In this document: positions 1,161 through 52,743 of the stretch, one piece after another
How the letters are laid out: each line of letters starts with the position of its first letter
How positions within the stretch are numbered: the stretch's first letter is position 1
From: Marinirhabdus gelatinilytica
GTDB taxonomy: Bacteria > Bacteroidota > Bacteroidia > Flavobacteriales > Flavobacteriaceae
Assembly (NCBI RefSeq): GCF_003353425.1
Contig: NZ_QRAO01000001.1
Span: forward strand, 558,001 to 622,000
Length of the DNA stretch: 64,000 bases
Reading direction: 5' to 3'
Made by a program: the position numbers and the translations under genes
Notes under the pieces: generated by a model
The model's database searches: none
What the model saw: the letters and a program-made list of their open reading frames with translations, nothing else
Told to the model about the DNA's origin: nothing

Positions 1161-1185
1161 ATGTCCTTTTCACAGCCTTGCCTAT

Positions 1186-6079: not shown

Positions 6080-6127
6080 ACCAGCAACCTCACTCAATGG
6101 GCAATGTAGCATTCTCTCCTTAAAGGA

Positions 6128-6147: not shown

Positions 6148-6229
6148 AGGAGCGTAACTAGGATTAACAATGAAATAGACACAAACCAATTATAGATAGT
6201 AAAATTTACCCAAGCAAATTAATAGCAAT

Positions 6230-7267
6230 ATGCAACTAGAACAACCCATTTACTTTTACCTTCTGCTCGCAATCCCTGTGATTGTGCTGCTGTTTGTGGG
6301 TGTTCTTATTTGGAAACGTCAGGCCCAAAAGAAATTTGCAGACGCAGAACTGCTTAAAAGACTGAGCCCAAACCGCTCCATTTTCAAGCCCGTGTTAAAG
6401 GTTTTTATTTTTTGTTTGGCTATTGCCTGTTTGGCTATTGGTTTGGTAAACCCAAAAATAGGCACCAAGATTGAAGACGTTAAACGTGAAGGGGTAGATG
6501 TTGTCTTTGCTCTGGACGTCTCCAAAAGTATGCTGGCCGAAGACATTGCCCCCAACCGTATCGAAAAATCAAAACAACTCGTCACTCAAATATTGAATAG
6601 CCTAGCGGGCGATAGGATTGGGATTATTGGCTATGCGGGGAGTGCATTTCCGCAGGTGCCCATTACGACCGATTTCTCTTCGGCAAAATTATTTCTCAAC
6701 AATATGAATACCGATATGGTATCCAGCCAAGGAACCGCAATTAACGAGGCGATTGAAATGGCAAAGACTTATTATAATGACGAAGAACAGACCAACAGGG
6801 TGCTGTTCATAATTTCAGATGGCGAGGACCACGAGGGTAACATTGAAAGTATTGCTGCAGAAGCGGCTGCACAGGGCATAAAAATATATACCATTGGGGT
6901 AGGTACCGAAAAAGGTGGCCCCATCCCAATTAAGCGAAACGGAATTTTACAATATTACAAACGCGACCAAAACAACGAGCAGGTAATCACCCGTTTGGGA
7001 GAAGAAACCCTAAAACAGATTGCCGAAGAAGGTAACGGAAGCTACATTCCAGGAAACAACACTAAGGAAGTGGTCTCAACTGTGACAGCTATCCTTAACG
7101 GAATGGACAAAAAGACATTCGAGGCCAAGCAATTTACCGATTTTAAGGACCAATTCCAGTGGTTTCTCGCCGGGGCATTGTTTTTGTTGATATTGGATGT
7201 GCTATTGCTGGAAAGAAAAACAGCATGGCTCAAAAAACTGAATTTATTTAATGAAGCTGAAAGATAA
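6230..7267 (+). CDS. batB: BatB, vWA-domain membrane protein
   Basis: BatB (345 residues) parallels BatA: two N-terminal membrane helices, a vWA domain with MIDAS motif DVSKS at residues 96-100 plus SDGEDHEGN, and a C-terminal helix (FLAGALFLLILDVLLLE). The two proteins are paralogues with the same layout, and both MIDAS sites look functional. The stop codon ends one base before the best batC start, so batB and batC are tightly linked. Their membrane topology places the vWA domain together with the DUF58/MoxR partners on one face, as in other Bat systems. Role beyond the stress-tolerance link is inferred. Confidence 0.95.
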   Translation: MQLEQPIYFYLLLAIPVIVLLFVGVLIWKRQAQKKFADAELLKRLSPNRSIFKPVLKVFIFCLAIACLAIGLVNPKIGTKIEDVKREGVDVVFALDVSKSMLAEDIAPNRIEKSKQLVTQILNSLAGDRIGIIGYAGSAFPQVPITTDFSSAKLFLNNMNTDMVSSQGTAINEAIEMAKTYYNDEEQTNRVLFIISDGEDHEGNIESIAAEAAAQGIKIYTIGVGTEKGGPIPIKRNGILQYYKRDQNNEQVITRLGEETLKQIAEEGNGSYIPGNNTKEVVSTVTAILNGMDKKTFEAKQFTDFKDQFQWFLAGALFLLILDVLLLERKTAWLKKLNLFNEAER

Positions 7268-7268
7268 G

Positions 7269-8156
7269 ATGAGGAATCATAAGAACATATTTTCAATACT
7301 TGTAATGGTTACATTGCTGGTATTCTCTTCGGAAATTTCCGCACAAGAGAAAGAGGACAAGACCTTACAAAAAGAGCAGAAACAACTGCTTCGGGAGACC
7401 AAACAATTAAATAGTGAAGCAAGTGTAGCATTGGCTGAAGACAAGTTTGTTGAGGGGGAGGCAGATTACCGAAAGGCCATCGCAATTAACCCAAAGAGCG
7501 AAACCGCAAAGTATAATTTGGGAAATGCCTATTACAATAAAGCGAAGAACGATGAGGCTATGAGCCGTTTTCAACAAGCTGCAGATGTGGCAACTTCAAA
7601 AAATGATAAACACAGTGCCTATCACAATTTGGGAAACACCTATATGAATGCCAAGCAATACCAAGATGCCGTAGACGCCTATAAAAATGCCCTTCGCAAC
7701 AATCCAAATGACGATGAAACACGATACAATCTAGCTTTGGCAAAGGATTTGTTGGAGAAAAACCCTCCAAAAGGTGGTGAGGGTGACAACAAGGACCAGG
7801 ATAAAAACCAGGATAAGAACGATCAAAACGAAGACAACCAAGATAAAAAAGACGAAGAAGGAAAGGACAAAGAGGGAAGTGAGGGCGACGAAGAAGAGGA
7901 TAAGGACAAAGGCGATGAACAGAACGATGAAAAGAAAGGCGAAAATGAAGAGGATAAAGGTAAACCAGACCAACCCAACGAGGGAGAACAGGACAAAGCC
8001 GACAAAAAACAACCCCAACCCCAACCTGGCCAAATGTCTCCCCAGCAAATTAAAAACTTGTTAGAGGCCATGAACAACGAAGAACAAAAGGTACAGGAAA
8101 AGATAAACGCCAAAAAGCAAAAAGGAGCCAAGGTAAAATCTGAAAAGGATTGGTAA
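7269..8156 (+). CDS. batC: BatC, TPR protein with charged tail
   Basis: From the ATG at 7269 the product has 295 residues and a normal signal peptide (MRNHKNIFSILVMVTLLVFS, then SEISAQ). TPR repeats follow: AEADYRKAIAINPKS-like, KYNLGNAYYNKAKNDEA, AYHNLGNTYMNAKQYQDAVD and YKNALRNNPNDDETRYNLA. The last third is a low-complexity run of Lys, Asp, Glu, Asn and Gln (about 7780-8010) followed by a Pro/Gln stretch and a short conserved end, QIKNLLEAMNNEEQKVQEKI. This charged tail is usual in BatC homologues of Bacteroidota. An ATG at 7251 overlaps batB and is the alternative start. The protein is periplasmic and probably scaffolds the BatABDE proteins. Confidence 0.92.
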   Translation: MRNHKNIFSILVMVTLLVFSSEISAQEKEDKTLQKEQKQLLRETKQLNSEASVALAEDKFVEGEADYRKAIAINPKSETAKYNLGNAYYNKAKNDEAMSRFQQAADVATSKNDKHSAYHNLGNTYMNAKQYQDAVDAYKNALRNNPNDDETRYNLALAKDLLEKNPPKGGEGDNKDQDKNQDKNDQNEDNQDKKDEEGKDKEGSEGDEEEDKDKGDEQNDEKKGENEEDKGKPDQPNEGEQDKADKKQPQPQPGQMSPQQIKNLLEAMNNEEQKVQEKINAKKQKGAKVKSEKDW

Positions 8157-8262
8157 AGCACTACAAAGTTGAAAAAACCATATACACGTTGAAACCTCTG
8201 TGTCCTCAGTGCCTCTGTGGTGAGATTACATGTTATGAATAGAGAAAACAATACAAATTAGA

Positions 8263-10032
8263 ATGAAAAAACTTCATTTTTTATTCCTAGTAATTTTTGT
8301 GCTGGTAGCAAACATCACCAGCGCACAGGTTACTTTTGAGGCGAAAGTGAGCAAGAAAAAGCTTGGGCTCAACGAGCGCCTTCGGGTAGATTTTGAGATG
8401 AACCAAGATGGCGACAACTTTAATCCGCCAAGTTTTGAGGGTTTCCGCGTTGTGGGAGGTCCCAACCAGGCCATCAGTAACTCCTACTTCAACGGAAAAC
8501 GCAGTTATTCAAAAACATACTCCTATTTCCTTTCACCACTCCGGAAGGGTAGTGCAACCATTGGGCAGGCCACTATCGAAATAGATGGAGAAACCTATAA
8601 AACCACGCCTGTCTCGGTTACCATTACCGATGCCGTTAAGCTATCAAAAGACGGTAGCAATGCCGAATATCTAGCAGAGGAAAACGTGCACCTTGTAGCC
8701 GAAGTCTCTAAAACCAGCCCGTATTTAAGCGAGGCCATTACGGTTACCTACAAATTGTATGTCTCGCATGATGTAAGCATTACCAGTAATTGGCGAGAAG
8801 TAAACACTCCAAAGTATGCCGATTTCTGGAGCCAGAACATCAATACAAGGGGGAACTATAAGATTTACGAGGGTAAATATAATGGCGAGGAATACCGTTA
8901 TGTAATTCTCCGCTCTACCGTACTCTATCCACAAAAAACAGGTGAGCTGGATATTGAACCATTAACGTTAGACATACCTATTGATGTACGTACCAACAAG
9001 CGCGATATTTTTGGCCGCCAGCGCATGGCACGGGTAAACAAAACCGTTTCGGCAGGGAGCCGGACCATAAATGTAAAGCCGTTGCCCGTTGAGGGAAAAC
9101 CAGATAATTTTACTGGAGCCGTGGGCGATTTTCAGTTTCAGGTACATACCAACAAGAATACGCTGGACGCTAATGAATCGTTGGAACTCACCACAAAAAT
9201 TTCAGGAAAAGGGAATTTGAAACTTTTTGATCTTCCAAATTTAAAACTGCCCAGCGCCTTGGAAGTGTATACACCCGAACGTGACAACCAAGTAACGGTG
9301 AAAAGTGACGGGATGCGTGGGACTATTTCAGAAAAATATACCGTAGTACCGCAGTTTAAGGGGAATTACCCAATTCGCCCTATTACATTCTCCTATTTTA
9401 ACCCAAAGACCGAACGGTACGAAACGCTTTCCAGCGAGGAGATTGTGATCAATGTTGAAAACGGTCCAGTAGCAAGTGAAAAACCAGCTGAAGACACTGC
9501 TATTACTGCTACTGAAGATTTGGACGATGCACAATTTAAATTTATTAAACTGGATGCAAACTTGGAGCCTATTGCTACAGCACCTTTTTTTAAATCTACT
9601 TTGTTCTGGTCGTTGTTGGGCGGGCCTATGTTGTTGATTCCGTTGTTCATCGTGGCAGGAAAGAAACGCCGTGAGCGCCTGGCCGATGTGGAGGGAATGA
9701 GACTTCGGAAAGCAGACCGATTGGCAAAAAAATATTTGGGGGAAGCCAAGAAAAACATGAACGACCGCGTGGTATTCTATGAGGCCTTGGAGCGAGCCTT
9801 CCATAACTACTTGAAAGCAAAGCTGAATATCGAGACGAGTGATTTCAGCAAAGAAAAAATATCGGCACTATTAACTGAAAGACAAGTACAGCCCGAAGTA
9901 GTTTCAGAATTCATACAATTGTTGAAGAGCTGCGAATATGCCCGCTACACTCCTACCAGCCAAGTGGCAATGCAACAGGATTACGAAAAAGCGGCACGGG
10001 TGATTTCAACCATAGACAAACAAATTCGATAA
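8263..10032 (+). CDS. batD: BatD, oxygen-tolerance family protein
   Basis: This 589-residue protein starts with a signal peptide (MKKLHFLFLVIFVLVANITS, then AQ). It has several Ig-like beta domains with the BatD hallmark near residue 45-75 (FNPPSFEGFRVVGGPNQAIS) and repeated K-G-x-x-x-I strands. A single membrane helix lies near residues 450-470 (LLGGPMLLIPLFIVAGKKRR), and a helical cytoplasmic tail contains FYEALERAFHNYLKAKLNI. The length matches BatD proteins. It follows batC after a 106-bp gap and is separated from batE by one base. It should be anchored in the inner membrane with its large part in the periplasm. Confidence 0.94.
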   Translation: MKKLHFLFLVIFVLVANITSAQVTFEAKVSKKKLGLNERLRVDFEMNQDGDNFNPPSFEGFRVVGGPNQAISNSYFNGKRSYSKTYSYFLSPLRKGSATIGQATIEIDGETYKTTPVSVTITDAVKLSKDGSNAEYLAEENVHLVAEVSKTSPYLSEAITVTYKLYVSHDVSITSNWREVNTPKYADFWSQNINTRGNYKIYEGKYNGEEYRYVILRSTVLYPQKTGELDIEPLTLDIPIDVRTNKRDIFGRQRMARVNKTVSAGSRTINVKPLPVEGKPDNFTGAVGDFQFQVHTNKNTLDANESLELTTKISGKGNLKLFDLPNLKLPSALEVYTPERDNQVTVKSDGMRGTISEKYTVVPQFKGNYPIRPITFSYFNPKTERYETLSSEEIVINVENGPVASEKPAEDTAITATEDLDDAQFKFIKLDANLEPIATAPFFKSTLFWSLLGGPMLLIPLFIVAGKKRRERLADVEGMRLRKADRLAKKYLGEAKKNMNDRVVFYEALERAFHNYLKAKLNIETSDFSKEKISALLTERQVQPEVVSEFIQLLKSCEYARYTPTSQVAMQQDYEKAARVISTIDKQIR

Positions 10033-10033
10033 G

Positions 10034-10783
10034 ATGAAAAAGATATTCTTCATACTGTTGGCATTGGTTTCGAGCGTGGTTTGGTGCCAAAACAACGCCT
10101 TGTTCGAGCAAGGGAAGGAGCATTACAAAAACGGAAAGTTTCAAGAAGCCATCAATGCCTGGGAAAAGGTCTTGGACAACGGGAAGCACTCGGCTTCGTT
10201 GTATTTCAACCTGGGCAATGCAAACTATAAACTGAACAATATTGGCCCCAGTATTTACTATTACGAAAAGGCATTACAGTTGGCCCCGGCAGATAGCGAT
10301 ATAAAGACCAACCTAAAGTTTGCCGAGAACACCAGAATAGACGCTATTGAACCGCTCCCCAAGACCATTCTTAAACGTTGGTACGAGCAACTGGCAGGAG
10401 CTTTAACCTACGATGGGTGGGCCGTCACATCAGTAGTGGGGGCAATACTTTTTGTGCTCTTGTTCTTGAGCTATTGGTTTTCCGCTTCAGAAACTAAGAA
10501 GCGATTGTTTTTTATAACTTCGGTGGTATCGATCTTGGTGTTGCTGGTGGGATTGGTAATGGCGTATCAAACGTATGGAGATGTATTGCAGGATACACCT
10601 GCTATTGTGTTTTCAGAAAGCACCCAGGTAAAAAGCGAACCAAACATGGGCAGTGAAACAGCTTTTATCCTACATGAAGGTACAAAGGTGCAAATCACGG
10701 CGACGGAAGACAAGTGGATACGTGTACTTCTTGCCAACGGAAAAGACGGATGGATTCCCGCTAGCGATGTAAAAAGATTATAG
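10034..10783 (+). CDS. batE: BatE, TPR and SH3-like protein
   Basis: The 249-residue product has a signal peptide ending near WCQ, two TPR units (ALFEQGKEHYKNGKFQEAIN and SLYFNLGNANYKLNNIGPSI), then two membrane helices (AVTSVVGAILFVLLFLSYWF and FFITSVVSILVLLVGLVMAY). The C-terminal region is an SH3b-like domain (AIVFSESTQVKSEPNMGSET, then GTKVQITATEDKWIRVLL and DGWIPASDVKRL). This order defines BatE. It is the last gene of the bat operon; the stop codon of batD lies one base upstream. SH3b domains in this setting may contact peptidoglycan, which is an inference. Confidence 0.94.
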   Translation: MKKIFFILLALVSSVVWCQNNALFEQGKEHYKNGKFQEAINAWEKVLDNGKHSASLYFNLGNANYKLNNIGPSIYYYEKALQLAPADSDIKTNLKFAENTRIDAIEPLPKTILKRWYEQLAGALTYDGWAVTSVVGAILFVLLFLSYWFSASETKKRLFFITSVVSILVLLVGLVMAYQTYGDVLQDTPAIVFSESTQVKSEPNMGSETAFILHEGTKVQITATEDKWIRVLLANGKDGWIPASDVKRL

Positions 10784-40088: not shown

Positions 40089-40162
40089 TCTCCCTTAGCT
40101 CAGTTGGTTAGAGCATCTGACTGTTAATCAGAGGGTCCTTGGTTCGAGCCCAAGAGGGAGAG
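40089..40162 (+). tRNA. tRNA-Asn (GTT)
   Basis: The cloverleaf can be drawn by hand. Acceptor TCTCCCT (40089-40095) pairs with AGGGAGA (40155-40161), D arm GCTC...GAGC, anticodon stem TCTGA/TCAGA with loop CTGTTAA giving anticodon GTT, and T arm CTTGG-TTCGAGC-CCAAG. The length is 74 nt with discriminator G. The 3' CCA is not encoded. Confidence 0.97.
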
Positions 40163-40172
40163 CAAATTTTTG

Positions 40173-40581: not shown

Positions 40582-43500
40582 ATGCCCAAAATATTTTTGC
40601 TAGGAGCTGCATTACTTTTTGCCAGCACCCTATACTCTCAGGAAAAAATTACGTACACACCCTATCAGGATCTTTTAGAAGAAATAAAAACTTCCTTACA
40701 AAAAGATGACTTTAAAGGCGTCCTTCTCTCGTTAGATAAAGTTAACAAAAACGATTCAACCTATTGTGGAGCCCTCTCTACAAAATCGTACTATCATCTT
40801 CAGTTAAAAAACTATGAAGATGTAATAAAGATCGCCAACCAAGGTATTGAGTTGGGGTGCCACGATGTGCAGGAAATTTTCCATATAAACAAGTTGGCGG
40901 CCTTGGTAGATTCCGAGAATTATACAGAAGCCTTGGAAGCAGCAAAGAATTCCCTCGAGATATATCCCATGAATAGTCTGCTGTGGTATAATAAGGCGTA
41001 TGCGCTCGAGGAACTTGGCCGTAAGAAAGAAGCAGTTTCTGCCTATATGGAAAGTATGGCAAGAAATCCCTTCGATCCTGCTCCACACTTGAGGATAGGG
41101 AACCTGTACTACAAGCAGGATAAAAAGGCACAAGCATTAATGGCACTAAATATGTTCTTGATCCTTCAACCTAATTTGCAAGAGACATTCCCAATCCTTA
41201 AACAGCTCAATAGCATTGCCGCGACTCCAATTTCTGAAACCGAAGAAGAACAGGTGCTCACAGAAGAAGATTCTAAATTCAAGGAGATAGATTTGATATT
41301 GAACCAAAGAGTAGCTCTTTCTAAAGGCTATGACGCGGGCAACCGAATAGATATTGCAGTGATAAAACAGAACCATGCGCTATTCACCAAGTTAAAGGAC
41401 ATGAAGGAAGGCGATGGGTTTTGGAGCACCAAGTACGTGCCACTCTATAAATGGGTCATGGAGAATGATCTTTTTGACGATTTCAGCTACACATTGGCGT
41501 ACAGTGCAGAAAACGAATCACTCCAAAGAATCGTCTCCAGAAAAAGCGATGAGGTGGAAGCCTTCTTGGGGGCTTTCTCTACGAAGTGGTTAGAGTTGTT
41601 GGGAAACAACAACGGAAAATATTACGAATATGAAGGGGAGATTGTAAGGGCAATGGGTGAAGTTGAAGATGAGGCCCCCGTAGGAGAATGGGTGTTTTAT
41701 GAGGATAACGGGCAACCATTATTAAAAGGTGCCTTCACAAAAAAAGGGGAAAGAAATGGTAAATGGGTATGGAACTATACTAACGGAAAGGTAAAAGAAG
41801 AAGCTACTTACAATAAAGATAAAAAAGAAGGTGAGTACAAAATGTATTATCCCAATGGGAAAGTAAGCCTAGAGGCCTTTTATAAAAACGACGAGCTTCA
41901 CGGCCCCTATAGGAGCTATACCAATAAAGGGGCACTCACACACGAAATACAATACAAAAACGGAAAAATTGATGGTGACTACCGCTCTTATTTTTCGGTT
42001 GGAAAACCTGTGATAGAATACAGCACTACCTATAAAAATGGTGAAGTTGCTGGAGATTTGTTGGAATATCATCTTAATGGAGAGGTATATCTAAAAAGTA
42101 CTTTTTCAAACGGAAAGAGAAACGGTGCCGAAACACAATATTTCAGCAATGGAAATATTGCCGGGGAAGCGCATTATAAGAACAATGAGTTGCACGGGAA
42201 ATACAGCACCAACTTTAAAAATGGACAAACACAAGATGAGGGGACTTATAAAGAGGGCAAAAGAGATGGCTTGTGGAAAACCTATTATATCGACGGAACC
42301 TTAGAGTCAGAGTCTTTGTACGACGACGGCGAAATTGAAGGAATATCGAAATTTTATAATACCAAAGGATCCTTACATATAGAGTATGAGTATAGGCGAG
42401 GTAACATTATTGCCTATAAATTTTATGACGATGAAGGAAAACTCATTAAGGAAGATAAAAGAAGAGGAGGAAAATTTAACTATGAATCCTATACACCCTA
42501 CGGGGTTAAGATTATAGAAGGTCTTTACGATGTAGATGGAGGTAAATCTGGGCTTTGGACCTATTATAACGATTATGGGGTTTTGGCATCCAAAATCACC
42601 TACAAACAAAACACCTTGGACGGCCCTTACACAACCTATCACGAAAACGGCCAGATAGAAGTAGAGAGCTCCTATAAAAACGATAAGCTGGATGGATATT
42701 ATGCAGCTTACTATCCTAGCGGGCAATTACAGGCTCAGGGCTGGTATGTAGATGGTCTGGAACAAGGAGAATGGGGCTACTATTATCCCAACGGTGAGTT
42801 GAGCTTACGTCCCTATTACCACAACGGAAAAAACCATGGAGAACAAATAAGCTATGGGGTAGATGGTACAAAGGAGAGTATAACCCATTTCGAGTATGGA
42901 GATATTATTGCGGAAGTACTTTTAGATGAAAACGGGAAACCATACCAAGAAGTAGATTATGTAAACAACAAAGACACCTATACAATAACCTATAATTTCC
43001 CCAATGGAAAGCCACGTAATGTGTACAACTACAAGAACGGATACAAACACGGTGCGTACGTAGGCAAAAATTTTGACGGAACAACCACTTCCCAAGGAAA
43101 CTTTTTACAAGGCTTCCAAAATGGAACCTGGAAATTTTATTTCGACGACGGCGCTTTGCAAACCACCAGTAATTACGATACAGATTTATTGGATGGATCC
43201 TACAAAAGATTTTTTGAAACGGGAGAGTTAAGCGTCAAGGCCAATTATGTAGCAGGAAAGCTCAATGGGCCCTATGAGTCGTATTACGAAAGTGGGACTT
43301 TGGACACAAAGGATTTTGACGTAATGGGCGAAACCCACGGAAGAAAAGAGAGCTACAGTCCAGAGGGCAAGTTACAGATTATACGGTACTACGACCACGG
43401 TAGGATAATAGGATATAGCTACCTGGACGAGAATGGAAACGAAAAACCCACAATCCCAATAGAAAATGGAACCGCTAAAGTAATTTCTTATTATGATAAT

Positions 43501-43851
43501 GGAGTAAGATCCAGAGAGTTCGAGTATATAAAAGGAAACTTAGTGGGTAGCTACAAAACTTACCACTACAACGGGAAGCCTGAGTACGATGCCAACTACA
43601 AAGATGGTGAATTCCATGGCCAAGAAACGAAATATTTCATGGACGGTACCCAAAAGCAAATCAGGAACTATAAGGACGGTCTCCTACACGGAGTGCAAAA
43701 AAGGTTCTTCAAAGACGGAAAAGTAAAAGAAGAGATTACCTACGTGTACGATGTTAGAAATGGTATTGCCAACTATTACAACGAGCAAGGTTCCCTCATA
43801 AAAAAGGACACATACCGTAACGGGATCGTAATTAACTCTGAAAAAATATGA
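40582..43851 (+). CDS. Secreted TPR and YwqK/MORN-repeat protein, about 30 repeats
   Basis: The 1089-residue product starts at the ATG at 40582, which gives a signal peptide (MPKIFLLGAALLFASTLYSQ). Residues of about 30-200 form TPR repeats (LLWYNKAYALEELGRKKEAV, PHLRIGNLYYKQDKKAQALM). From about residue 365 to the end are roughly 30 YwqK/MORN-like repeats of 23-24 residues with the pattern G-x-Y/W-x-x-Y-Y-x-N/D-G-x-L-x-x-E-x-x-Y-K-N-G. Three higher-order units end in G-x-I-I followed by a D-E/D-x-G motif, spaced 166-167 residues apart. MORN-like repeats may bind membranes, lipids or proteins. The gene overlaps the next one (ATGA). No sorting domain is present, so location is periplasm or outer membrane. 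Confidence 0.88.
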   Translation: MPKIFLLGAALLFASTLYSQEKITYTPYQDLLEEIKTSLQKDDFKGVLLSLDKVNKNDSTYCGALSTKSYYHLQLKNYEDVIKIANQGIELGCHDVQEIFHINKLAALVDSENYTEALEAAKNSLEIYPMNSLLWYNKAYALEELGRKKEAVSAYMESMARNPFDPAPHLRIGNLYYKQDKKAQALMALNMFLILQPNLQETFPILKQLNSIAATPISETEEEQVLTEEDSKFKEIDLILNQRVALSKGYDAGNRIDIAVIKQNHALFTKLKDMKEGDGFWSTKYVPLYKWVMENDLFDDFSYTLAYSAENESLQRIVSRKSDEVEAFLGAFSTKWLELLGNNNGKYYEYEGEIVRAMGEVEDEAPVGEWVFYEDNGQPLLKGAFTKKGERNGKWVWNYTNGKVKEEATYNKDKKEGEYKMYYPNGKVSLEAFYKNDELHGPYRSYTNKGALTHEIQYKNGKIDGDYRSYFSVGKPVIEYSTTYKNGEVAGDLLEYHLNGEVYLKSTFSNGKRNGAETQYFSNGNIAGEAHYKNNELHGKYSTNFKNGQTQDEGTYKEGKRDGLWKTYYIDGTLESESLYDDGEIEGISKFYNTKGSLHIEYEYRRGNIIAYKFYDDEGKLIKEDKRRGGKFNYESYTPYGVKIIEGLYDVDGGKSGLWTYYNDYGVLASKITYKQNTLDGPYTTYHENGQIEVESSYKNDKLDGYYAAYYPSGQLQAQGWYVDGLEQGEWGYYYPNGELSLRPYYHNGKNHGEQISYGVDGTKESITHFEYGDIIAEVLLDENGKPYQEVDYVNNKDTYTITYNFPNGKPRNVYNYKNGYKHGAYVGKNFDGTTTSQGNFLQGFQNGTWKFYFDDGALQTTSNYDTDLLDGSYKRFFETGELSVKANYVAGKLNGPYESYYESGTLDTKDFDVMGETHGRKESYSPEGKLQIIRYYDHGRIIGYSYLDENGNEKPTIPIENGTAKVISYYDNGVRSREFEYIKGNLVGSYKTYHYNGKPEYDANYKDGEFHGQETKYFMDGTQKQIRNYKDGLLHGVQKRFFKDGKVKEEITYVYDVRNGIANYYNEQGSLIKKDTYRNGIVINSEKI

Positions 43852-45776
43852 TTACAAGAATCCTAACAACACTGTGCTTGTGCATTTCCGTAGGCACCTT
43901 TGGCCAAGAGTCCCAAGATTTTCTGAAATATAAAAACCTATATCCAGAGGATAGGTACGTAAGGCTCCAGCAGGCACAAAATGTAGAGATTGACCTATCG
44001 AGGGATAAAATAACCATTGTCCAGAATTTTATTGAAGAAGATCTTTACCTGGACGATGGCGCCAATCTCAACTCCAAGGAGTCTCTCAATTTTTCTTCCT
44101 TTTATGAGTTGGAATCCATAGAGGCCAGCTCTTTTAGTTTCGATGGCGGCAAGTACCGTAAGGAAACAGTAGAGAATTTTACCGAACGGGACGACCAGAG
44201 CAGATCTTTTTACGATGATACCAAGACCATAAACTTTGTGTATAAAAACCTCAGGAAAGGCTCCAAAACAAGGCTCGAGTATAAAGAGAACGTTAAGGAC
44301 CCACGCTTTCTTAGCCCATTCTTTTTCGGAAATTATTACCCTATAGAAAACAGTAGTCTAGAGATTGAAGTCCACAAAGATATAGACATACGGTTCCTCG
44401 AATTCAATACCGAAGGGATCGACGTTCAATATGAAAAAGAGGAAAAAAGAAACAAGAACATTTATAGATGGCGAATAAAAAACATAGACAAGTTTGAATA
44501 TGAACCTAATGCACCAACTTTTAAGAGCGTAGTCCCGCATATTATACCCGTGATAAACTCCTATAAGGTTGATGGAAAAAAGATTTCGGTACTCAACGAT
44601 GTTTCAGACTTGTACAACTGGTACGCCTCACTGGTAAAAAATGTAAATACCAAGGAAAGCAGTAAAGACCTTAAAAATACAGTAAACACCCTAGTATCGG
44701 GCCTGGAAACAGACCTCGAAAAGGTAAGGGCTATTTACTATTGGACACAGGAAAACATAAAGTACATTGCTTTCGAGTATGCCCTAGGTGGGTTTATTCC
44801 TAGGGAAGCCAACGATGTTTTCAACAAAAAATATGGCGACTGTAAGGACAATTCCAGCATCTTAAAAGAAATGCTAAAAATAGCAGGTATCCAGGGAAGT
44901 TTAACCTGGGTGGGCACTAGGGAAATACCCTATACGTACAAACAAGTTCCCACGCCCTTGGTGGATAACCACATGATTTTGTCCTACACAGAAAATGGGG
45001 AGACCTATTACCTAGACGCAACGGGAAGGTATACCCCTTTGGATATGCCAACTTCTTTTATTCAAGGAAAAGAGGCGCTGGTAGAAAATGGCCCCGATGC
45101 CTTTTCTATAAAGCAAATTCCTATTGTTCCAGCTTCAAGAAATTCGATAACCGAGAGTACAACCTTGCGCTTGGAAGGGGATAGGTTGGTGGGTGCTTCA
45201 AAAGCAAGTTTGACGGGCTACCCGAAAAGTCGGTTTTTCTCCAATCTGGAAAACATGGACAGCAAGTCCCAAATAGATATTTTATATAAAGACTTCTTTG
45301 AAAAAGGCAACAACAAATTCCTCATACAAACCTATACCGAAAACAATAAGTATAGCTACGAACTTCCTTTCTTGGTAGATTACGAATTTTCCATCGAAGA
45401 TTACGCAAGAAAATTGGGCGACGAAATATACATAAACCTCAATTTAAACAAGTTGGCGTCAATGTATAAAACCGAAGAAGATAGAGAGCTCCCTGTTGAA
45501 TATGACTTTAAGCAAAAATTTTCGCATACCACAACATTCCAAATTCCTGCTGGGTACAAGGTTACCTATTTGCCAGAGAATGTAGTAGCCTCTAACGAGC
45601 TTATGGATATTAAGGTAAGCTATCAAGACAAAGGAGACAGTATTGTTTACAACCAAGAAATACTGGTAAAATTCATTATTCTGGATACCGCCCAACAGCA
45701 ACAACTCAATAAATTAATAGAACAGGCCGAAAAAGCCTACAAAGAAGTTTTAGTCCTAAAAAAATCAGCACCATGA
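43848..45776 (+). CDS. DUF3857 and transglutaminase-core protein, intact triad
   Basis: This 642-residue exported protein has a signal peptide (MITRILTTLCLCISVGTFGQ), a DUF3857 beta-rich domain up to about residue 250, then a transglutaminase-like core. Catalytic residues are in place: Cys-332 in YGDCKDNSS, His-375 in DNHMIL and Asp-390 in YLDATGRYTPL. A C-terminal beta domain follows. Related DUF3857 proteins of Bacteroidota are often neighbours of uncharacterised envelope genes. Reaction may be transamidation or peptide/amide hydrolysis. It overlaps both neighbours by the ATGA arrangement, so all three are one operon. Confidence 0.9.
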   Translation: MITRILTTLCLCISVGTFGQESQDFLKYKNLYPEDRYVRLQQAQNVEIDLSRDKITIVQNFIEEDLYLDDGANLNSKESLNFSSFYELESIEASSFSFDGGKYRKETVENFTERDDQSRSFYDDTKTINFVYKNLRKGSKTRLEYKENVKDPRFLSPFFFGNYYPIENSSLEIEVHKDIDIRFLEFNTEGIDVQYEKEEKRNKNIYRWRIKNIDKFEYEPNAPTFKSVVPHIIPVINSYKVDGKKISVLNDVSDLYNWYASLVKNVNTKESSKDLKNTVNTLVSGLETDLEKVRAIYYWTQENIKYIAFEYALGGFIPREANDVFNKKYGDCKDNSSILKEMLKIAGIQGSLTWVGTREIPYTYKQVPTPLVDNHMILSYTENGETYYLDATGRYTPLDMPTSFIQGKEALVENGPDAFSIKQIPIVPASRNSITESTTLRLEGDRLVGASKASLTGYPKSRFFSNLENMDSKSQIDILYKDFFEKGNNKFLIQTYTENNKYSYELPFLVDYEFSIEDYARKLGDEIYINLNLNKLASMYKTEEDRELPVEYDFKQKFSHTTTFQIPAGYKVTYLPENVVASNELMDIKVSYQDKGDSIVYNQEILVKFIILDTAQQQQLNKLIEQAEKAYKEVLVLKKSAP

Positions 45777-47737
45777 TAAAGAATGTTTTTGTTTGTATTG
45801 TACTTTTCATTACGGCAACCGCTTTAGCACAAAAGCCAATCTACAAATCCTACAACTGGGAAAAGGAGCCAAGCTTTAAGGTGCCAGAAGCCAAAGACGA
45901 AAAAATAGCGACCCTAAAGCACGCTGTAGTTGCCGAATTGTATATGGACAGAAAAGAAGAGCTCACCGAGTACTTCCTTGAGCACGAGGTGCTATGGCTA
46001 AACAGTAACGAAAAGATTGAAGAGTACAACAAGATTTACCTTCCCTATTCCAACACATCAAAAATTGTGGTCAACAAAGCAAGGGTAATATCGAAAGATG
46101 GGAAAATCACGGAGATAGACCCTTCAAAGATATTCGAGTCCAAGAATGAGGAAACCGGTGCCTTGGTACAGTATTTTGCGCTGGAAGGAATAGAAAAGGG
46201 TAGCATTGTAGAACATATTTATGTTTACGAACGTTCGCCCAAGATCAATGGAAATCGCATTAGTCTACAAAACTACATGCCCAAGAACAATGTAACCTTC
46301 GACCTATATGCCCCCTCACATTTGGACTACAAATTTAAGAGCTACAATGGTGCACCAGAAGTAACAAAGATGGAAGATATAGAAGACAGGAACCATTGGG
46401 GTATCACCGCTACAGACTTTACGGGCGTAGCCGAAGAAGAAGTCTCTGCATATTGGGCATCTACCGCCTTTTTGGTGTACGTGCTGGACGGGAACACTGC
46501 GGCGGGCACCGTTGGGATAACGTCCTATAGCACACTTGTAAAAAGGTTGTTTCCATATTATTATCCAGAACACTCAAAACGAACACAACGAAATATTGAA
46601 AAGTTTGCAAAAGATGCCATTGGTAATAGCAAGGAAACAGAAGAGAAAATAAGAAGCTTGGATCGCTACATAAAATCCAACGTATACCTTTCTGATTCGG
46701 GAAGCGATGATGCAAAGGATATTGATGAAATCCTCAAAAACAAGGTCGCAAACGAAACGGGAGTGCTTAGATTGTACATAACCCTGCTTACCTCTCTTGG
46801 TATAGAGCACGAGATGGTCATTACCAGCGATCGTCAACATATAAAATTCGACAAAAATTTTGAGGCCTATAACTTCTTGTCAGATTTTCTAATCTATTTC
46901 CCAGAATTCAACACCTACCTTTCTCCTACAGAATATGAAACTAGGTATGGTTTTCCACCACCTTTCCTAACCGATAACTACGGGCTCTTCATTAAAAAAG
47001 TTAAACTTGGAGACTATACCTCCGGAGTAGGTGAAATAAAATACATCCAGCCCAACACGGCAGACCAGACGGTGGATAATATGTTAATTGACATTTCTTT
47101 TGAAAAGGATAATATTTCAAAAATCATCGTGGATTATACACGTGAAATGGGTGGCTATTACAGTAGTTTTATACAGCCCTTTATCCACTTGGTTAAAAAG
47201 GAGGACAAAGACGAGCTCATGGAGAGCTTCATTAAGAATATAAACGAGAACGTAACCATAAACAGTAAAGAGATAGTAAACGGAAAACCAGAACTTTTTG
47301 GGATAAAACCATTTACCATTGTGCTTAATTACGATAGTGAAGCTTTTGTGGAAAAAGCAGGTAACAAGTATTTGTTCAAGATAGGCGAACTAATAAGCAA
47401 ACAAATTGAAATGTACCAAGAAAGCGAGAGGGTCCTGGATGTAGAAGAAAGGCACACACGTACCTATTTGCGTACCATAACCATGGAAATTCCCGAGGGA
47501 TACGAGATTGCCAATCCAGACGATATCAACATAAAACACGAGTACAGCAGTAACGGTGAGCCCTTCTTTTCGTTCCACTCCCATTACAAAATAGAGGACA
47601 ACCTACTCACCATAACTGCAGATGAGTACTACCATAAAAATAAGGTAGATGTCTCTTTATACGAAGAATACAGAAAAGTAGTGAATAGCGCAGCAGACTT
47701 CAATAAAATTACACTGGTACTGCAACCTGTTCAATAA
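45773..47737 (+). CDS. DUF3857 protein with degenerate transglutaminase core
   Basis: The 654-residue exported protein (MIKNVFVCIVLFITATALAQ) has the same plan as the previous gene: DUF3857 domain, transglutaminase-like region, C-terminal beta domain. At the position of the catalytic Cys (YGDCKDN in the neighbour) it has KVANETGV, so the Cys is replaced by Glu-328, and the His/Asp motifs are not recognisable. It should be catalytically dead, but the fold seems kept over the full length. It starts within the stop of the active paralogue. A partner or regulator role is an inference. A 182-nt gap with tandem repeats separates it from a histidine kinase gene. Confidence 0.85.
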   Translation: MIKNVFVCIVLFITATALAQKPIYKSYNWEKEPSFKVPEAKDEKIATLKHAVVAELYMDRKEELTEYFLEHEVLWLNSNEKIEEYNKIYLPYSNTSKIVVNKARVISKDGKITEIDPSKIFESKNEETGALVQYFALEGIEKGSIVEHIYVYERSPKINGNRISLQNYMPKNNVTFDLYAPSHLDYKFKSYNGAPEVTKMEDIEDRNHWGITATDFTGVAEEEVSAYWASTAFLVYVLDGNTAAGTVGITSYSTLVKRLFPYYYPEHSKRTQRNIEKFAKDAIGNSKETEEKIRSLDRYIKSNVYLSDSGSDDAKDIDEILKNKVANETGVLRLYITLLTSLGIEHEMVITSDRQHIKFDKNFEAYNFLSDFLIYFPEFNTYLSPTEYETRYGFPPPFLTDNYGLFIKKVKLGDYTSGVGEIKYIQPNTADQTVDNMLIDISFEKDNISKIIVDYTREMGGYYSSFIQPFIHLVKKEDKDELMESFIKNINENVTINSKEIVNGKPELFGIKPFTIVLNYDSEAFVEKAGNKYLFKIGELISKQIEMYQESERVLDVEERHTRTYLRTITMEIPEGYEIANPDDINIKHEYSSNGEPFFSFHSHYKIEDNLLTITADEYYHKNKVDVSLYEEYRKVVNSAADFNKITLVLQPVQ

Positions 47738-47838
47738 CAGCAATTCTATATCTGTTTACTACCCTTTCGAGCACTGGGGTGCCAGAATATGGGTAATGAT
47801 TGCATAAAAGCTATAGTTTTCAACCCTTTAAAGATTCT

Positions 47839-47908
47839 TCAAATTCTAACTCAAACCTCTCAAATTCTAATCCAAACAACATAAAATGGGTCCTTTGTGA
47901 TATTTTCG
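47839..47908 (+). promoter_or_regulatory. Direct repeats and near-consensus -7 box before the histidine kinase gene
   Basis: TCAAATTCTAACTCAAAC (47839-47856) and TCAAATTCTAATCCAAAC (47860-47877) are 16/18 identical and spaced 21 bp apart, two helical turns. TATTTTCG (47901-47908) is a 7/8 match to the -7 box. No -33 element is seen where expected. This is what an activator-dependent promoter looks like. Confidence 0.5.
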
Positions 47909-47919
47909 TCTTTTAATTT

Positions 47920-49887
47920 ATGTGTATGAGGCTATTTACGTTTCTAGTTGCTTTTTTATTTTGTGTTTCATGGGTGTTTGCTCAGGACACAATAATCGAT
48001 AGCCTTCAAAACAAAGTGGCTCAAACCTCCAGCCCTCTTGAAAAAGCAAAGGGATACAACGCTATTGCAAACCTCTACAAGTACAGCGATCCCAATAAAA
48101 TGTTGGAGTTCGGCAAGAAAGCCCTTTCCATTTCAGAAGACAACAACCTAAACATCCAAACGGGAAATGCATACCTAAATTTAGGGACTGCAAATATTAT
48201 TTTGGGAGATTATAAAACGGCTATGGATCAGTTTGTCTGGGCAAAGTCAATTTTTGAAGAAGTACCAGAGACCACCCAAAACCGTGAAGAAACCAAAATG
48301 GGAACCGCAAAAGCTATTGGCTATATGGGAGTTGTTTTTTCAGAGCAGAGCAATTATACCAAGGCATTAGAGTGCTACCTCAAGGCTGCTAAAATGTATG
48401 AAGACCTACAGGATATGGGCCAAGCTTCAAAAATATTCAACAATATAGGAGTAGCATACAAATCACAGGGAGCCACAGAAAAGGCATTGGAGTATTTTTT
48501 AAAGGCTTTGGAGATACAGGTAGAGCTAGCAGATGTGAACAAGGGAATTACACAAACCAACATTGCCAATATCTATTTTAACCAGGACAGGTTAGAAAAA
48601 GCTTTTCAATACTATACCGCAGCCAAAAGCAGTATCGATGAAAACCCTAACCCAAGAGCTCTGGGAGAATGGTACAACAATATAGGACGATATTACAGTG
48701 CCCAAAATTATCCTGATAAAACATTGGATAGTTGGGAAAGAGCAATCAAATCCTTTAAAAGCATTGGAGATAAGTTTGGTCTGGCAGATACGTATTTACT
48801 CATTGCTGAATTCCAAAAAGAAAATAATAATGCAACACAAGCTGTAGCAACTGCCAATACGGCATTGCAATTAGCCTCCGAGACCAATGTGCTGGAACAG
48901 ATCGCAGTAGCAGAAAAACTGCTAAGTGATAGTTATGCGCAAATAGGGAATACTTCCAAAGCCTTACAACACTATAAAGCATATAGCACGGCAAGAGATA
49001 GCCTCTATAAAAGGAACGATGTAAGAAAAGCGGTAGAAGCAGCCATGAACTATGAGTTTGAAAAGAAGGAACTATTGCGAAAGGAAGAAAACCAAAAGCG
49101 GGAGCTTTTGCTTAAAGAAGAAGCCAAGAGTAATACTATGAAACTGCTGTTCGGGGCGTTGATCGCCTTACTGCTATTTGGGATAGGGTTTTTGATCTAC
49201 AATCGCCAACAGCTTAAGAAAACACTTACGCTCCAAAAAGAACTGGCAGAATACGAGCAAAAAGCATTGCACCTGCAAATGAACCCACACTTTGTCTTTA
49301 ACTGTTTGGGGTCTATTTCCAGTTTTATTGTGCAGAATGGGACCGATAGCGCTATAAAATACCTCTCAAAATTCTCAAAATTGATGCGATTGACGCTGGA
49401 ATATTCAAAGGAATCGCTTATTCCTATAGACAAGGAGATAGAAAGCCTTCAGAATTATCTGGAACTGGAGCAGCTACGATTCAACAACAAGTTCAATTTC
49501 AGTATAACCAAGGATCCTGCCATAGAGGACGACGTGGCCTTGCCCCCATTGTTGATCCAGCCATTTATTGAAAATTCCATCATTCACGGTGTAGTACCCA
49601 AACAGGAAAAAGGGGAAATCTCCATTTCCTTTTCGGTTTCTGAAACTTCCCTACAGTGTATTATAATAGACAATGGAGTGGGGATAGAACAATCCAGAAA
49701 AAATAAACAAAACTTGGTACTGGCCCATAAATCGATGGCATTGGGAATTATACAAAAACGACTGGAGATGATTACCGAAGCTACCCAAAAGCAGGCCAAT
49801 ATAAGCATTGAAGAGTTAGCCCAAAATGGGGAGGTGACGGGCACCAAAGTGGTTCTACAACTCCCTTTACAATATGAAAACGGCTAA
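47920..49887 (+). CDS. TPR-containing LytS-type sensor histidine kinase
   Basis: The 655-residue protein has a signal-like N-terminus (MRLFTFLVAFLFCVSWVFAQ), a periplasmic TPR region with repeats such as ALECYLKAAKMYEDLQDMGQ and AFQYYTAAKSSIDENP, a membrane helix (KLLFGALIALLLFGIGFLIY), a coiled coil, and a His-kinase domain with LHLQMNPHFVFNCLGSISSF (phosphorylated His-457). Its ATPase domain has LPPLLIQPFIENSIIHGVV. The domain order TPR-membrane-LytS-type kinase is common in Bacteroidota. The LytTR regulator gene follows 20 nt downstream. An ATG at 47926 is the alternative start. Confidence 0.93.
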   Translation: MCMRLFTFLVAFLFCVSWVFAQDTIIDSLQNKVAQTSSPLEKAKGYNAIANLYKYSDPNKMLEFGKKALSISEDNNLNIQTGNAYLNLGTANIILGDYKTAMDQFVWAKSIFEEVPETTQNREETKMGTAKAIGYMGVVFSEQSNYTKALECYLKAAKMYEDLQDMGQASKIFNNIGVAYKSQGATEKALEYFLKALEIQVELADVNKGITQTNIANIYFNQDRLEKAFQYYTAAKSSIDENPNPRALGEWYNNIGRYYSAQNYPDKTLDSWERAIKSFKSIGDKFGLADTYLLIAEFQKENNNATQAVATANTALQLASETNVLEQIAVAEKLLSDSYAQIGNTSKALQHYKAYSTARDSLYKRNDVRKAVEAAMNYEFEKKELLRKEENQKRELLLKEEAKSNTMKLLFGALIALLLFGIGFLIYNRQQLKKTLTLQKELAEYEQKALHLQMNPHFVFNCLGSISSFIVQNGTDSAIKYLSKFSKLMRLTLEYSKESLIPIDKEIESLQNYLELEQLRFNNKFNFSITKDPAIEDDVALPPLLIQPFIENSIIHGVVPKQEKGEISISFSVSETSLQCIIIDNGVGIEQSRKNKQNLVLAHKSMALGIIQKRLEMITEATQKQANISIEELAQNGEVTGTKVVLQLPLQYENG

Positions 49888-49907
49888 ATTTACCAGAAAC
49901 ACACTTT

Positions 49908-50669
49908 ATGATAAGCGCAGTTTTAGTAGACGACGATAAAAACCTCCGTAACGGGATGAAAAAACTATTGGCTCGTTTTGCACCATCGATTTCAATTGTT
50001 GGAGAGGCAGACAGTGTTGCCACTGGAGTTGCTGTGATACAAAGATCACAACCGCAGGTAGTATTCCTGGACATTCAGTTGAACGATGGGACGGGGTTCG
50101 ATATTTTGGAAAAAGTTGCAGCGGCAAACCAAACGATATCCTCAAACATCGTATTTATAACTGCCCACGAACAATATGCTATCAAGGCGTTCAGGTTCAG
50201 TGCGCTGGATTTTTTACTGAAGCCGGTAGATCCCGAGGAGCTTCAGAAGGTAATCGAGAAAATTAAGAGCGTGGTACAAAAAAAGAGTGACTTTTCGCAC
50301 ATAGACCTGTTGCTGGAGAATATAAGAAAGAACGTGGACAACTTTAAGCGCATTGCATTGTCAACCTCGGATGGGATTCATCTTTTTGATATCAGCAATA
50401 TTATACGCTGTGAGAGTGAAGATAATTATACCAAGTTCTATATAGAGGACCATAAGCCCGTGCTTATTTCAAAAACCCTCAAGGAATATGAGGAATTACT
50501 GGGCGAGCATAATTTTGAGCGCATCCACCAGTCGCACTTAATAAATTTGAATTACTTGAAATCTTATATAAAAAAGGATGGTGGCTATGTGGTGATGGCA
50601 GATGGGAGCAGGTTGCCCATTTCACAGAGAAAACGAGAACGATTGCAAACTATCTTAAAGACGATGTAG
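49908..50669 (+). CDS. LytTR-family response regulator
   Basis: This 253-residue response regulator has a receiver domain (MISAVLVDDDKNLRNGMKKL; phosphoacceptor Asp-55 in VVFLDIQLNDG; VFITAHEQYAIKAF; DFLLKPVD) and a LytTR DNA-binding domain (ISNIIRCESEDNYTKFYIED, FERIHQSHLINLNYLKSYIK, GSRLPISQRKRERL). It should be phosphorylated by the kinase encoded just upstream and bind direct-repeat DNA. The repeats at 47839-47877 are candidate targets, though their spacing differs from classical LytTR sites. Cytoplasmic. Confidence 0.94.
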   Translation: MISAVLVDDDKNLRNGMKKLLARFAPSISIVGEADSVATGVAVIQRSQPQVVFLDIQLNDGTGFDILEKVAAANQTISSNIVFITAHEQYAIKAFRFSALDFLLKPVDPEELQKVIEKIKSVVQKKSDFSHIDLLLENIRKNVDNFKRIALSTSDGIHLFDISNIIRCESEDNYTKFYIEDHKPVLISKTLKEYEELLGEHNFERIHQSHLINLNYLKSYIKKDGGYVVMADGSRLPISQRKRERLQTILKTM

Positions 50670-50754
50670 CGAATTCTAAATGAAACCATCTATTTGCTCA
50701 TTGAGCTGCTGCATACTTAAAGGACATACGTACATTTATTGAAAATTAACTATT

Positions 50755-52743
50755 ATGAAAAAATTACTTCTTCTCCTGCTACTAGTCACGGGTGCTGCCA
50801 GTGCTCAAATCGTAAACATTCCGGATCCAGCTTTTAAAGCTGAATTGATCGCCGATGGTGTGGACACCAATATGGATGGTGAAATACAGGTGACAGAAGC
50901 AATGGCGACAATAGCGATTGATTTGGAAACGCTGGAGATTACAGATCTTACGGGGATTGAAGCTTTTGTAAACCTGGAAACTTTTCAATCTATACATATA
51001 TCGCCAACAGTTGTGGACCTCACAAGCAACATAAACTTAACCCAAGTAGAAATAGTTGATTCAGCAATTAGTCCTATAGCTTCTATTGACATTTCATCAT
51101 GTACCGCACTTGAAGAACTTATCATATCCGGAACTTCAATTACTAGCTTGGATTGTACTACCAACGTAAATTTAACGGCATTATATATAGCTGGAAACTC
51201 TTTGCTCGAAACAGTTTTTATAAAGAACGGAAGTGATGAGAGTTCAAATATGGGTCCAGGAAGTTGGTTGGAAAATTGGTTGTTCGGAAACAATCCTAGC
51301 TTGCTGTATGTATGCGCAGATGAGTTTCAAGTTCAAGAAATACAGGGCTTCGCAGGGACAAACTATAATGTAAACAGCTACTGCAACTTCCCTCCTGGAG
51401 GCGATTATAATACCATTACAGGTGTTTCTAGGTTTGATGAAGAGAATGATGGATGTGACCTTACCGATCTTGCCATTCCCTATCAAAAATATAATGTTGA
51501 CCTCAATGGAGGTGCCAATTCCACCGTATATGCAGATAGCCTGGGTGTCTACAATTTGTATGTGGCCGAAACTGGAACCTATAATATTACCCCGGACCTG
51601 GAGAACCCGAGTTACTTTTCCATAACACCTTCGCCAGCGAGCGTAGTAGTTCCGGCTATAGACAACAGTATTGTGCAACAGGATTTTTGTATAACAGCAA
51701 ATGGGGTCAATCCAGATCTGGAAGTGGTTTTTGCTCCATTGGTACCTGCGAGTCCGGGCTTTCAAGCCTTTTACTTGCTCAGTTACAAAAACAAAGGAAA
51801 CCAAGCCATGGACGGTGATGTAACTTTTAATTTTGATGACAACGTTATAGATTTTATTGGAGCCTCTGCACAGCCGGACATAGAAGCGTTTGGAGAACTT
51901 ACTTTTAATTTTACAGATCTTGAGCCTCTGCAAACTGTGAACATCTATATGTATTTGTATATAAACAGTCCAACGGACACACCGCCAGTTAACATAGATG
52001 ACGTGCTAGAGTTCACTGCTACCATTAACCCTATTGCTGGGGACGAGTTTCCAAATGATAATATTTTTGATTTTGATCAAATAGTCGTTGGCTCTTACGA
52101 CCCAAACAATATAATTTGTATAGAGGGGGAAAGCGTAGCTACTACCTACATTGGAGAGTACCTGCACTATATAATCAATTTTGAAAACACGGGCAATGCC
52201 CCTGCCCAGAACATAGTGGTTACTATGGAGGTAGACCCAGAAGATTTTGACCAAGAAAGTTTGCGGGTACTTACAGCCTCTGATGACATGTACGTAAATG
52301 TGGTGGGCAATTTGGTCGAGTTTAATTTCCCTGAAATTTTCTTGGATACAGGTGGCCACGGTAACATACTCCTTAAAATGAAAACCAAGGAAACGTTAAC
52401 CACAGCGGACGAAGTAGCACTTCAGGCCAATATTTACTTTGACTATAATTTCCCGGTACTCACAAACGAAGCAGTTACATCTTTTAGAATATTGGGGGTA
52501 GATGGGTTTGATGTGTCACATATTTCGGTATTCCCTAATCCTACCAATAATATTGTAAACATCCAATCTCTTTCAACAATCAAAAATATTGAAGTGTACG
52601 ATGTACAAGGCAGAAAGATACAAGCGGTAGAAGCCACCCAGCAAAACACCCAAGTAGATATTTCAGCTTTAAGAACAGGGGTTTATTTCTTCTCGATCAA
52701 AACCGAAAAAGGAAGTACCGTGAAAAAGATAGTGAAACGTTAA
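50755..52743 (+). CDS. T9SS-secreted LRR-like surface protein
   Basis: The 662-residue protein has a signal peptide (MKKLLLLLLLVTGAASAQIV), then leucine-rich-like segments (ALEELIISGTSITSLDCTTN, LTALYIAGNSLLETV), beta-sandwich modules (GDYNTITGVSRFDEENDGCD; NPDLEVVFAPLVPASPGFQA) that resemble the DUF7619-type conserved repeat, and a C-terminal type A sorting domain: ISVFPNPTNNIVNIQSLSTI to GSTVKKIVKR. It should cross the outer membrane by T9SS and be fixed to the cell surface. It lies just after the two-component genes and may be a cargo of the same regulon, which is an inference. Confidence 0.9.
   Translation: MKKLLLLLLLVTGAASAQIVNIPDPAFKAELIADGVDTNMDGEIQVTEAMATIAIDLETLEITDLTGIEAFVNLETFQSIHISPTVVDLTSNINLTQVEIVDSAISPIASIDISSCTALEELIISGTSITSLDCTTNVNLTALYIAGNSLLETVFIKNGSDESSNMGPGSWLENWLFGNNPSLLYVCADEFQVQEIQGFAGTNYNVNSYCNFPPGGDYNTITGVSRFDEENDGCDLTDLAIPYQKYNVDLNGGANSTVYADSLGVYNLYVAETGTYNITPDLENPSYFSITPSPASVVVPAIDNSIVQQDFCITANGVNPDLEVVFAPLVPASPGFQAFYLLSYKNKGNQAMDGDVTFNFDDNVIDFIGASAQPDIEAFGELTFNFTDLEPLQTVNIYMYLYINSPTDTPPVNIDDVLEFTATINPIAGDEFPNDNIFDFDQIVVGSYDPNNIICIEGESVATTYIGEYLHYIINFENTGNAPAQNIVVTMEVDPEDFDQESLRVLTASDDMYVNVVGNLVEFNFPEIFLDTGGHGNILLKMKTKETLTTADEVALQANIYFDYNFPVLTNEAVTSFRILGVDGFDVSHISVFPNPTNNIVNIQSLSTIKNIEVYDVQGRKIQAVEATQQNTQVDISALRTGVYFFSIKTEKGSTVKKIVKR

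Follow-up and report, generated by a model that had tools for sequence, protein, structure and literature searches.

A conserved TPR-MORN gene followed by one predicted active and one degenerate DUF3857 transglutaminase-fold gene in Marinirhabdus gelatinilytica and other Bacteroidota

Introduction

The DUF3857-transglutaminases (PF12969, PF01841), the MORN and MORN_2 (YwqK-type) repeat proteins, the enzyme-pseudoenzyme pairs and the LytTR two-component systems are the described systems closest to a locus that we analyze here, in a 64,000-nucleotide stretch of DNA from Marinirhabdus gelatinilytica (the window: positions 558,001 to 622,000 of contig NZ_QRAO01000001.1, designated C1:558001-622000 of G000, an assembly of 24 contigs). 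The locus holds a module of three consecutive genes, encoding a protein of tetratricopeptide (TPR) and MORN repeats (MORN), a DUF3857-transglutaminase-fold protein with an intact catalytic triad (TGa) and a second such protein that has lost its catalytic Cys and His (TGd). Next to it lies a block encoding a sensor kinase (HK), a LytTR response regulator (RR) and a leucine-rich repeat-like protein (LRR).

The DUF3857 domain scores above its cut-off in both TGa and TGd, and the TGd model has the fold of 3kd4, the solved member of the family; the locus differs from that member in that 3kd4 itself has no catalytic Cys. No account of DUF3857 function, or of a MORN-linked DUF3857 operon, was found in the openly licensed literature searched. 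Enzyme-pseudoenzyme pairs consist of a catalytic protein and a degenerate paralogue kept side by side, and TGa and TGd resemble such pairs generally in being catalytic and degenerate neighbours, but no transglutaminase pair of this kind was found described in the literature searched. MORN belongs to the same repeat family as the MORN/MORN_2 proteins. Unlike these proteins generally, it is fused to TPR repeats, carries a constant number of about 31 repeats and is encoded upstream of a DUF3857 pair. In protozoan MORN1, the repeats were shown to mediate dimerization and oligomerization (PMC7725318). LytTR systems such as YpdA/YpdB combine a PF06580 kinase with a LytTR regulator, as HK and RR do, and PMC4847170 gives LytTR sites as two repeats of 9-11 nt, 11-13 apart, ranges that include the 10-bp repeats, 11 bp apart, of the candidate operator at this locus. 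Unlike the YpdA/YpdB type, HK has a TPR sensor part, and the operator precedes only its own block and lies outside the module.

In this study, we examine the conservation of the module, the active sites of its two transglutaminase-fold proteins, the repeat array of MORN, and the relation of the module to the sensor block. The genes of the module keep one order across a bacterial class, and no function for this gene set was found in the literature searched.

Results

Relatives of the module were sought at three taxonomic depths. Among 149 genomes of the family, 11, that of the window included, have a full-length MORN, and it is these 11 that also have a close TGa (above 540 bits) and a close TGd (above 530 bits). 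The three genes are contiguous and in order in nine of the ten others; in the tenth, G016, they are split between two contig ends, with MORN-TGa on one and TGd on the other. A scan of genome contigs returned 392 TGd relatives, the best 80 of which are called the named loci, their titles giving mostly genera that we take to be Flavobacteriaceae, or just Flavobacteriales, Bacteroidia or Bacteroidetes. The order MORN-TGa-TGd is present in 71 of these 80, with Dokdonia, Polaribacter and Winogradskyella among the genera that carry it. Six have TGa-TGd without a full MORN (L123, L126, L134, L135, L138 and L143), with a MORN remnant of 159 residues retained in L143 and a TGa of 380 residues in L138; L150 has TGd without TGa, and L145 and L153 are at contig ends. 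Across the class (Bacteroidia in GTDB), 395 genomes were searched for TGd relatives with an E-value of 1e-30 or better, and no fewer than 76 have one, a lower bound since at most three candidates per genome were scored. Twenty loci from other families were hand-picked from these 76 (L221 duplicates L142, and L229 and L230 are near-copies), and 16 carry MORN-TGa-TGd, with MORN frames of 1090-1137 residues; TGa-TGd stands alone in L237 and L240, and TGd alone in L236 and L239. Nine further loci divide into four with MORN upstream (L190, L192, L199, L204) and five with no MORN (L058, L059, L060, L215, L220). The initial annotation would have been refuted had homologues of these three genes mostly lain apart in related genomes; they mostly adjoin one another, and the linkage is stronger than had been claimed. 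MORN-TGa-TGd is, as gene order and sequence indicate, an old putative three-gene operon with its order fixed across the class.

When 61 TGd rows were placed in a quick maximum-likelihood tree, 46 fell into one set, 38 of them with MORN, and 15 MORN-less rows outside it; the long branches of L060 and L215 meet in this tree. Four Flavobacterium-type MORN-less loci cluster inside the MORN set, a pattern as from a single loss. Pairwise distances of the module proteins correlate over 69 loci (r 0.855-0.883, with none of 999 permutations as high), in a comparison that had no control gene, and MORN is the fastest-diverging of the three proteins.

Variant arrangements of the genes were also seen. One locus, L045 (G057:C66:29000-48900), has a duplicated pair in the order TGa-TGd-MORN-TGa-TGd. 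MORN-less TGa-TGd pairs recur in a common context in L046-L048 and L050-L057, mostly preceded by an opposite-strand gene of about 350 residues and followed by two genes, of roughly 311-320 and 345 residues, and the MORN-less pairs of L123, L126, L134 and L135 adjoin what, judging by sequence, looks like an aromatic amino acid gene cluster.

The two transglutaminase-fold proteins differ at the active site, in agreement with their description in the initial annotation as one active and one dead enzyme. Both contain DUF3857 (55.9 bits in TGa and 56.2 in TGd; Pfam cut-off 24.6), and Transglut_core reaches 33.2 bits in TGa, above its cut-off of 23, and stays under it in TGd, at 21.7. Cys332, His375 and Asp390 are intact in all 26 aligned TGa rows. 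None of 27 aligned TGd rows has either Cys or His in the corresponding columns, and one has the Asp; some have a His a few residues off the aligned column. The same division holds in the named loci, where 71 MORN, 74 TGa and 78 TGd rows survived a length filter: GDCK and NHM motifs occur in 74/74 full-length TGa rows, and the Cys motif in 0/78 full-length TGd rows.

Searches of the PDB with the single sequences of TGa and TGd gave nothing useful; a profile of active members found 3kd4, Parabacteroides distasonis BDI_1141, titled 'putative protease'. The TGd model (mean predicted local distance difference test score, pLDDT, 91.2) matches 3kd4_A with Z 20.0 and a root-mean-square deviation of 4.1 over 475 aligned residues, and yeast PNGase (3esw) with Z 10.0 over 146 aligned residues of the transglutaminase domain, and its N-terminal DUF3857 part is similar in structure to OST1 and to the M1 aminopeptidase N-terminal domain (Z 9.4-11.2). 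At the position where the active-member profile has YGDCKA, 3kd4 reads YGTPLE and has no Cys, so that the profile's only relevant match of solved structure is itself dead.

The pairing of one Cys-bearing with Cys-less members extends beyond the module. DUF3857 genes were sought in 148 genomes of the phylum, and 39 tandem regions were chosen by eye among the matches listed; six loci (L062-L067) were also taken, and members shorter than 400 residues could be missed. Exactly one member keeps the Cys in all 44 arrays with recovered open reading frames (ORFs), as compared to 20.6 such arrays on average, and 36 at most, when labels were shuffled 10,000 times. With A for active and d for dead, the layouts are Ad (15), dA (13), ddA (9) and Add (7). 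Cys and His are both present in each of the 44 active members, whose third aligned residue is Glu in 33 and Asp in 11. L183, which gave no ORF match and is outside the 44, has by eye one YGDCKALV frame and one 692-residue frame without the motif. The genome of the window contains a second array, of layout Add, at about 94.6-100.4 kb of C5 (L065, C5:88000-107900); its neighbours, judging by sequence, are genes like those of DAHP synthase, RsgA and D-aminoacyl-tRNA deacylase. The predicted TGa-TGd pair thus exemplifies a broader Bacteroidota pattern of tandem DUF3857 genes, in which one putatively active member is accompanied by one or two dead ones.

The MORN protein combines helical and repeat regions. 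Its AlphaFold2 model (mean pLDDT 90.4) has TPR helices at about residues 28-214, more helices at about 230-341 and a regular beta array from there to the end. This MORN_2 array spans residues 346-1089 with a period of 24 residues, in about 31 copies, which, by the usual strand spacing that we assume, would make a rod of roughly 30 nm. Array length was compared in 36 MORN proteins (that of the window, all 20 of the distant loci, and every fifth one among the 71 of the named loci): it is 744-755 residues in all 36, with no run of inserted or deleted residues of 12 or more in the aligned arrays. Identity to the window protein falls to about 24% among these relatives, and the constancy of repeat number during such drift suggests a job that depends on length. 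Structural matches to the MORN model cover the helical TPR part only and have no bearing on the rod. The LIC20035 adhesin model NF033566 scores MORN below its curated cut-off (144.2 against 250).

Feature coordinates are collected in Table 1. The module occupies 40582-47737 (block 1) and HK-RR-LRR occupies 47920-52743 (block 2). MORN/TGa and TGa/TGd overlap by 4 bp at ATGA, and the gap of 182 bp between TGd and HK contains an operator-like repeat; the ORF coordinates confirm the same-strand frames and overlaps first described for the locus.

Table 1. Features of the module, the adjacent sensor block and their surroundings, in window positions.
Feature	Positions	Strand	Basis
tRNA-Asn, bordering the genus-variable region	40089..40163	+	genus comparison
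TPR-MORN protein (MORN), 1089 aa	40582..43851	+	ORF, Pfam, AlphaFold2 model
TGa, DUF3857-transglutaminase-fold protein, intact Cys332-His375-Asp390	43848..45776	+	ORF, Pfam, alignment
TGd, DUF3857 pseudo-transglutaminase, catalytic Cys and His lost	45773..47737	+	ORF, Pfam, alignment, model
Candidate LytTR-type operator upstream of HK, in block 2 and not the module	47840..47870	+	repeat pattern
HK, TPR-His_kinase sensor kinase, separate neighbouring block	47920..49887	+	ORF, Pfam
RR, LytTR response regulator, separate neighbouring block	49908..50669	+	ORF, Pfam
LRR/DUF7619 protein with type IX secretion system (T9SS) sorting tail	50755..52743	+	ORF, Pfam

Pfam assigns TPR and MORN_2 to MORN (168.6 bits, cut-off 29.6), TPR and His_kinase (PF06580) to HK, Response_reg and LytTR to RR, and DUF7619 with a C-terminal Por_Secre_tail (60.2 bits, cut-off 27) to the last protein of block 2, which bears out its annotation as a T9SS-sorted LRR-like protein following the regulator. 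Por_Secre_tail has no Pfam match in MORN, TGa or TGd. The N-termini of these three, judged by eye, resemble signal peptides and would place the proteins in the periplasm; lipobox-like N-termini were found with a simple pattern in 3/71 MORN, 1/74 TGa and 3/78 TGd proteins of the named loci. A PF06580 kinase gene adjoins a receiver-LytTR regulator gene, as in LytTR two-component systems. The 'LytS-LytTR pair' of the initial annotation stands as far as a kinase with a LytTR regulator is concerned, but no LytS-type membrane sensor domain was detected in HK by Pfam at E-values up to 0.01, where its only matches are to TPR, SNAP, Sel1, His_kinase and HATPase families. The FimS kinase model NF053520 also scores HK under its curated cut-off (76.5 against 600).

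Sigma-70-type promoter matches were at shuffle level (39 against 38.3). A common promoter motif upstream of MORN was considered and set aside, TAnn[TC]TTG being found in 22 of 70 regions against 13 shuffled ones, which is too weak. An anti-phage defence system was likewise rejected, as PADLOC gave no match for MORN, TGa, TGd or LRR; it gave partial TPR matches to HK (22.3 and 16.4 bits) and a partial match to RR (19.2 bits).

The sensor block is, by gene content and sequence, separate from the module. The site between tRNA-Asn and a NAD-dependent epimerase-like gene (named by eye) was compared in five genomes of the genus. G000 has the module and then HK-RR-LRR, G151 (L077) has both with HK-RR-LRR first, G150 carries HK-RR-LRR but no module there, and G073 and G149 have neither block and carry other genes with T9SS-like tails. 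TGd is absent genome-wide from G150 and G073, and G149 has only a 28.5-bit match; the genome-wide search in G149 and G150 was made with TGd. LRR adjoins HK-RR in all three same-genus genomes that have HK-RR. With orthologues required to exceed 200 bits for HK and 150 bits for RR, the pair is present in 1/80 named loci, the same-genus L077, where it flanks the module on the opposite side, and was not found beside the module in the nine contiguous family relatives. In the nine of those ten relatives that were searched for HK (all but G016), the match with the best E-value reaches no more than 29-34% identity. In another genus, Pukyongia, the module of L089 adjoins the same NAD and PepO genes and comes without HK, RR or LRR.

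The operator candidate is a perfect 10-bp direct repeat, CAAATTCTAA-N11-CAAATTCTAA, upstream of HK. It has no mismatch in any of the three genomes with HK, the next best site having two mismatches in G000 and one in G150, and with up to three mismatches the pattern is expected 0.01 times in the window. No operator was found before MORN, where the best upstream site has 8/20 mismatches. The half-site GCGAATTCTAA upstream of LRR is common to the three genomes. An operator regulon reaching past HK is unsupported, and many of the weak sites are AT-rich repeats; sites with up to three mismatches, against a backward control, number 5 and 2 in G000, 11 and 1 in G151, 7 and 2 in G150, 2 and 3 in G073, and 7 and 1 in G149.

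Discussion

These data lead us to a reading of the old MORN-TGa-TGd operon that we hold at about an even chance, in which TGd would be a pseudoenzyme partner of TGa and the pair would work on or along the MORN rod, all three proteins acting in the periplasm. TGd has kept the DUF3857-transglutaminase-C-terminal fold but lost catalysis and, hence, most likely binds TGa or the substrate of TGa. It may control or position TGa, as pseudoenzyme partners do, and such a regulatory role fits the lost active site. TPR-MORN may form a rigid scaffold of fixed length that the TGa/TGd pair sits on or modifies. A scaffold fits the fixed repeat number, and the oligomerization of MORN1 (PMC7725318) would suit it by analogy. 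The chemistry at Cys332 would be acyl transfer or hydrolysis (cross-linking, amide cleavage or deamidation), with some envelope protein or peptide as the probable target. More tentatively, and with less probability than we give that reading, the proteins could be an undescribed periplasmic machine, in which the rigid beta rod, always of one length, would bridge the periplasm or serve as its ruler and would direct a transglutaminase dependent on its dead twin, and Bacteroidota DUF3857 proteins could be obligate enzyme-pseudoenzyme complexes of one catalytic and one or two dead subunits.

Several observations weigh against TGd and TGa as partners along the rod. MORN-less TGa-TGd pairs, or TGd genes, exist in a Flavobacteriaceae set, at the Flavobacterium-type loci L123, L126, L134 and L135, in 4/20 other-family loci and in 5/9 further loci, so MORN is not strictly required, and the MORN label changes 6 times over the TGd tree, as compared to 18.8 times in shuffles. 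Presence of the module in 11 of 149 family genomes, and the lack of TGd in three of five genus genomes, imply that it is dispensable. A correlation of distances is to be expected between neighbours inherited together, whether or not the proteins touch. Among the 60 other array members, which have no Cys, the aligned His is still present in 17 and the Asp in 50, and what is lost is therefore above all the Cys; because arrays share descent, moreover, the 44 are not 44 independent events.

In the initial annotation, five genes were proposed to form a system for which the two-component pair could be the sensor, and one integrated envelope system of five or six genes, in which the kinase/LytTR pair senses and controls the MORN-transglutaminase genes, would account for the two blocks being adjacent on the same strand in G000 and adjacent, in swapped order, in G151. 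Weak HK/RR homologues near the module would also suit it: a pair of 73 and 66 bits two genes past TGd in G016 (L040), HK-like genes of 53 bits at L138 and of 75 bits, on the opposite strand, at L226, and a receiver of 52 bits at L235. This proposal is nevertheless largely refuted, and we consider it highly improbable. G150 has HK-RR-LRR with TGd nowhere in its genome, a single named locus has HK/RR orthologues, the Pukyongia module lies beside the same neighbours without the sensor genes, and the operator precedes HK, none having been found before MORN. The order MORN-TGa-TGd survives from the earlier five-gene scheme; HK and RR belong to another block, and their role as sensor for the module does not.

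Two other explanations concern what the proteins of the module do to one another. MORN could itself be the substrate, cross-linked or cleaved by TGa and merely presented by TGd, with the fixed length reflecting a structural product, the MORN rod. Tight linkage, co-divergence and the constant array length are consistent with this, but pairs with an intact TGa exist where MORN is lacking, and there TGa must have another substrate; we regard the explanation as possible but doubtful. TGd could instead be no partner of TGa and have only the operon in common with it, binding carbohydrate or protein on its own, an idea prompted by the resemblance of its DUF3857 part to the M1 aminopeptidase N-terminal domain and OST1, a binding rather than a catalytic fold. 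This is unlikely in view of the 44/44 tandem arrays, which in four layouts pair one active with one or two dead members.

TGd as a pseudoenzyme partner of TGa would have consequences beyond this locus. The one-active-plus-dead pattern predicts that DUF3857 enzymes work as mixed complexes, which is testable in any laboratory Bacteroidota. The array pattern also cautions against assaying single DUF3857 members or taking 3kd4, under its title of protease, as an enzyme.

The tRNA-Asn is probably an integration site. That the whole region is one mobile island at this tRNA was considered and is retained only in part, as a region variable within the genus; since the module adjoins those NAD and PepO genes in Pukyongia, another genus, too, a long residence followed by losses is as good an account as a gain in recent times. 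In G150, a 39-bp sequence that matches the 3' half of tRNA-Asn exactly lies next to restriction-modification genes. On the reverse complement of L159 (G150:C14:466000-485900), positions 1-10600 hold a mobile-looking island at the tRNA-Asn site that ends in this match and encodes MmeI-type restriction-modification, a DEAD helicase and T5orf172. A 97-residue ORF, GIY-YIG-like by eye, directly follows a tRNA-Asn end in two same-genus genomes (reverse complements of L076, 4133-4426, and L159, 10185-10478).

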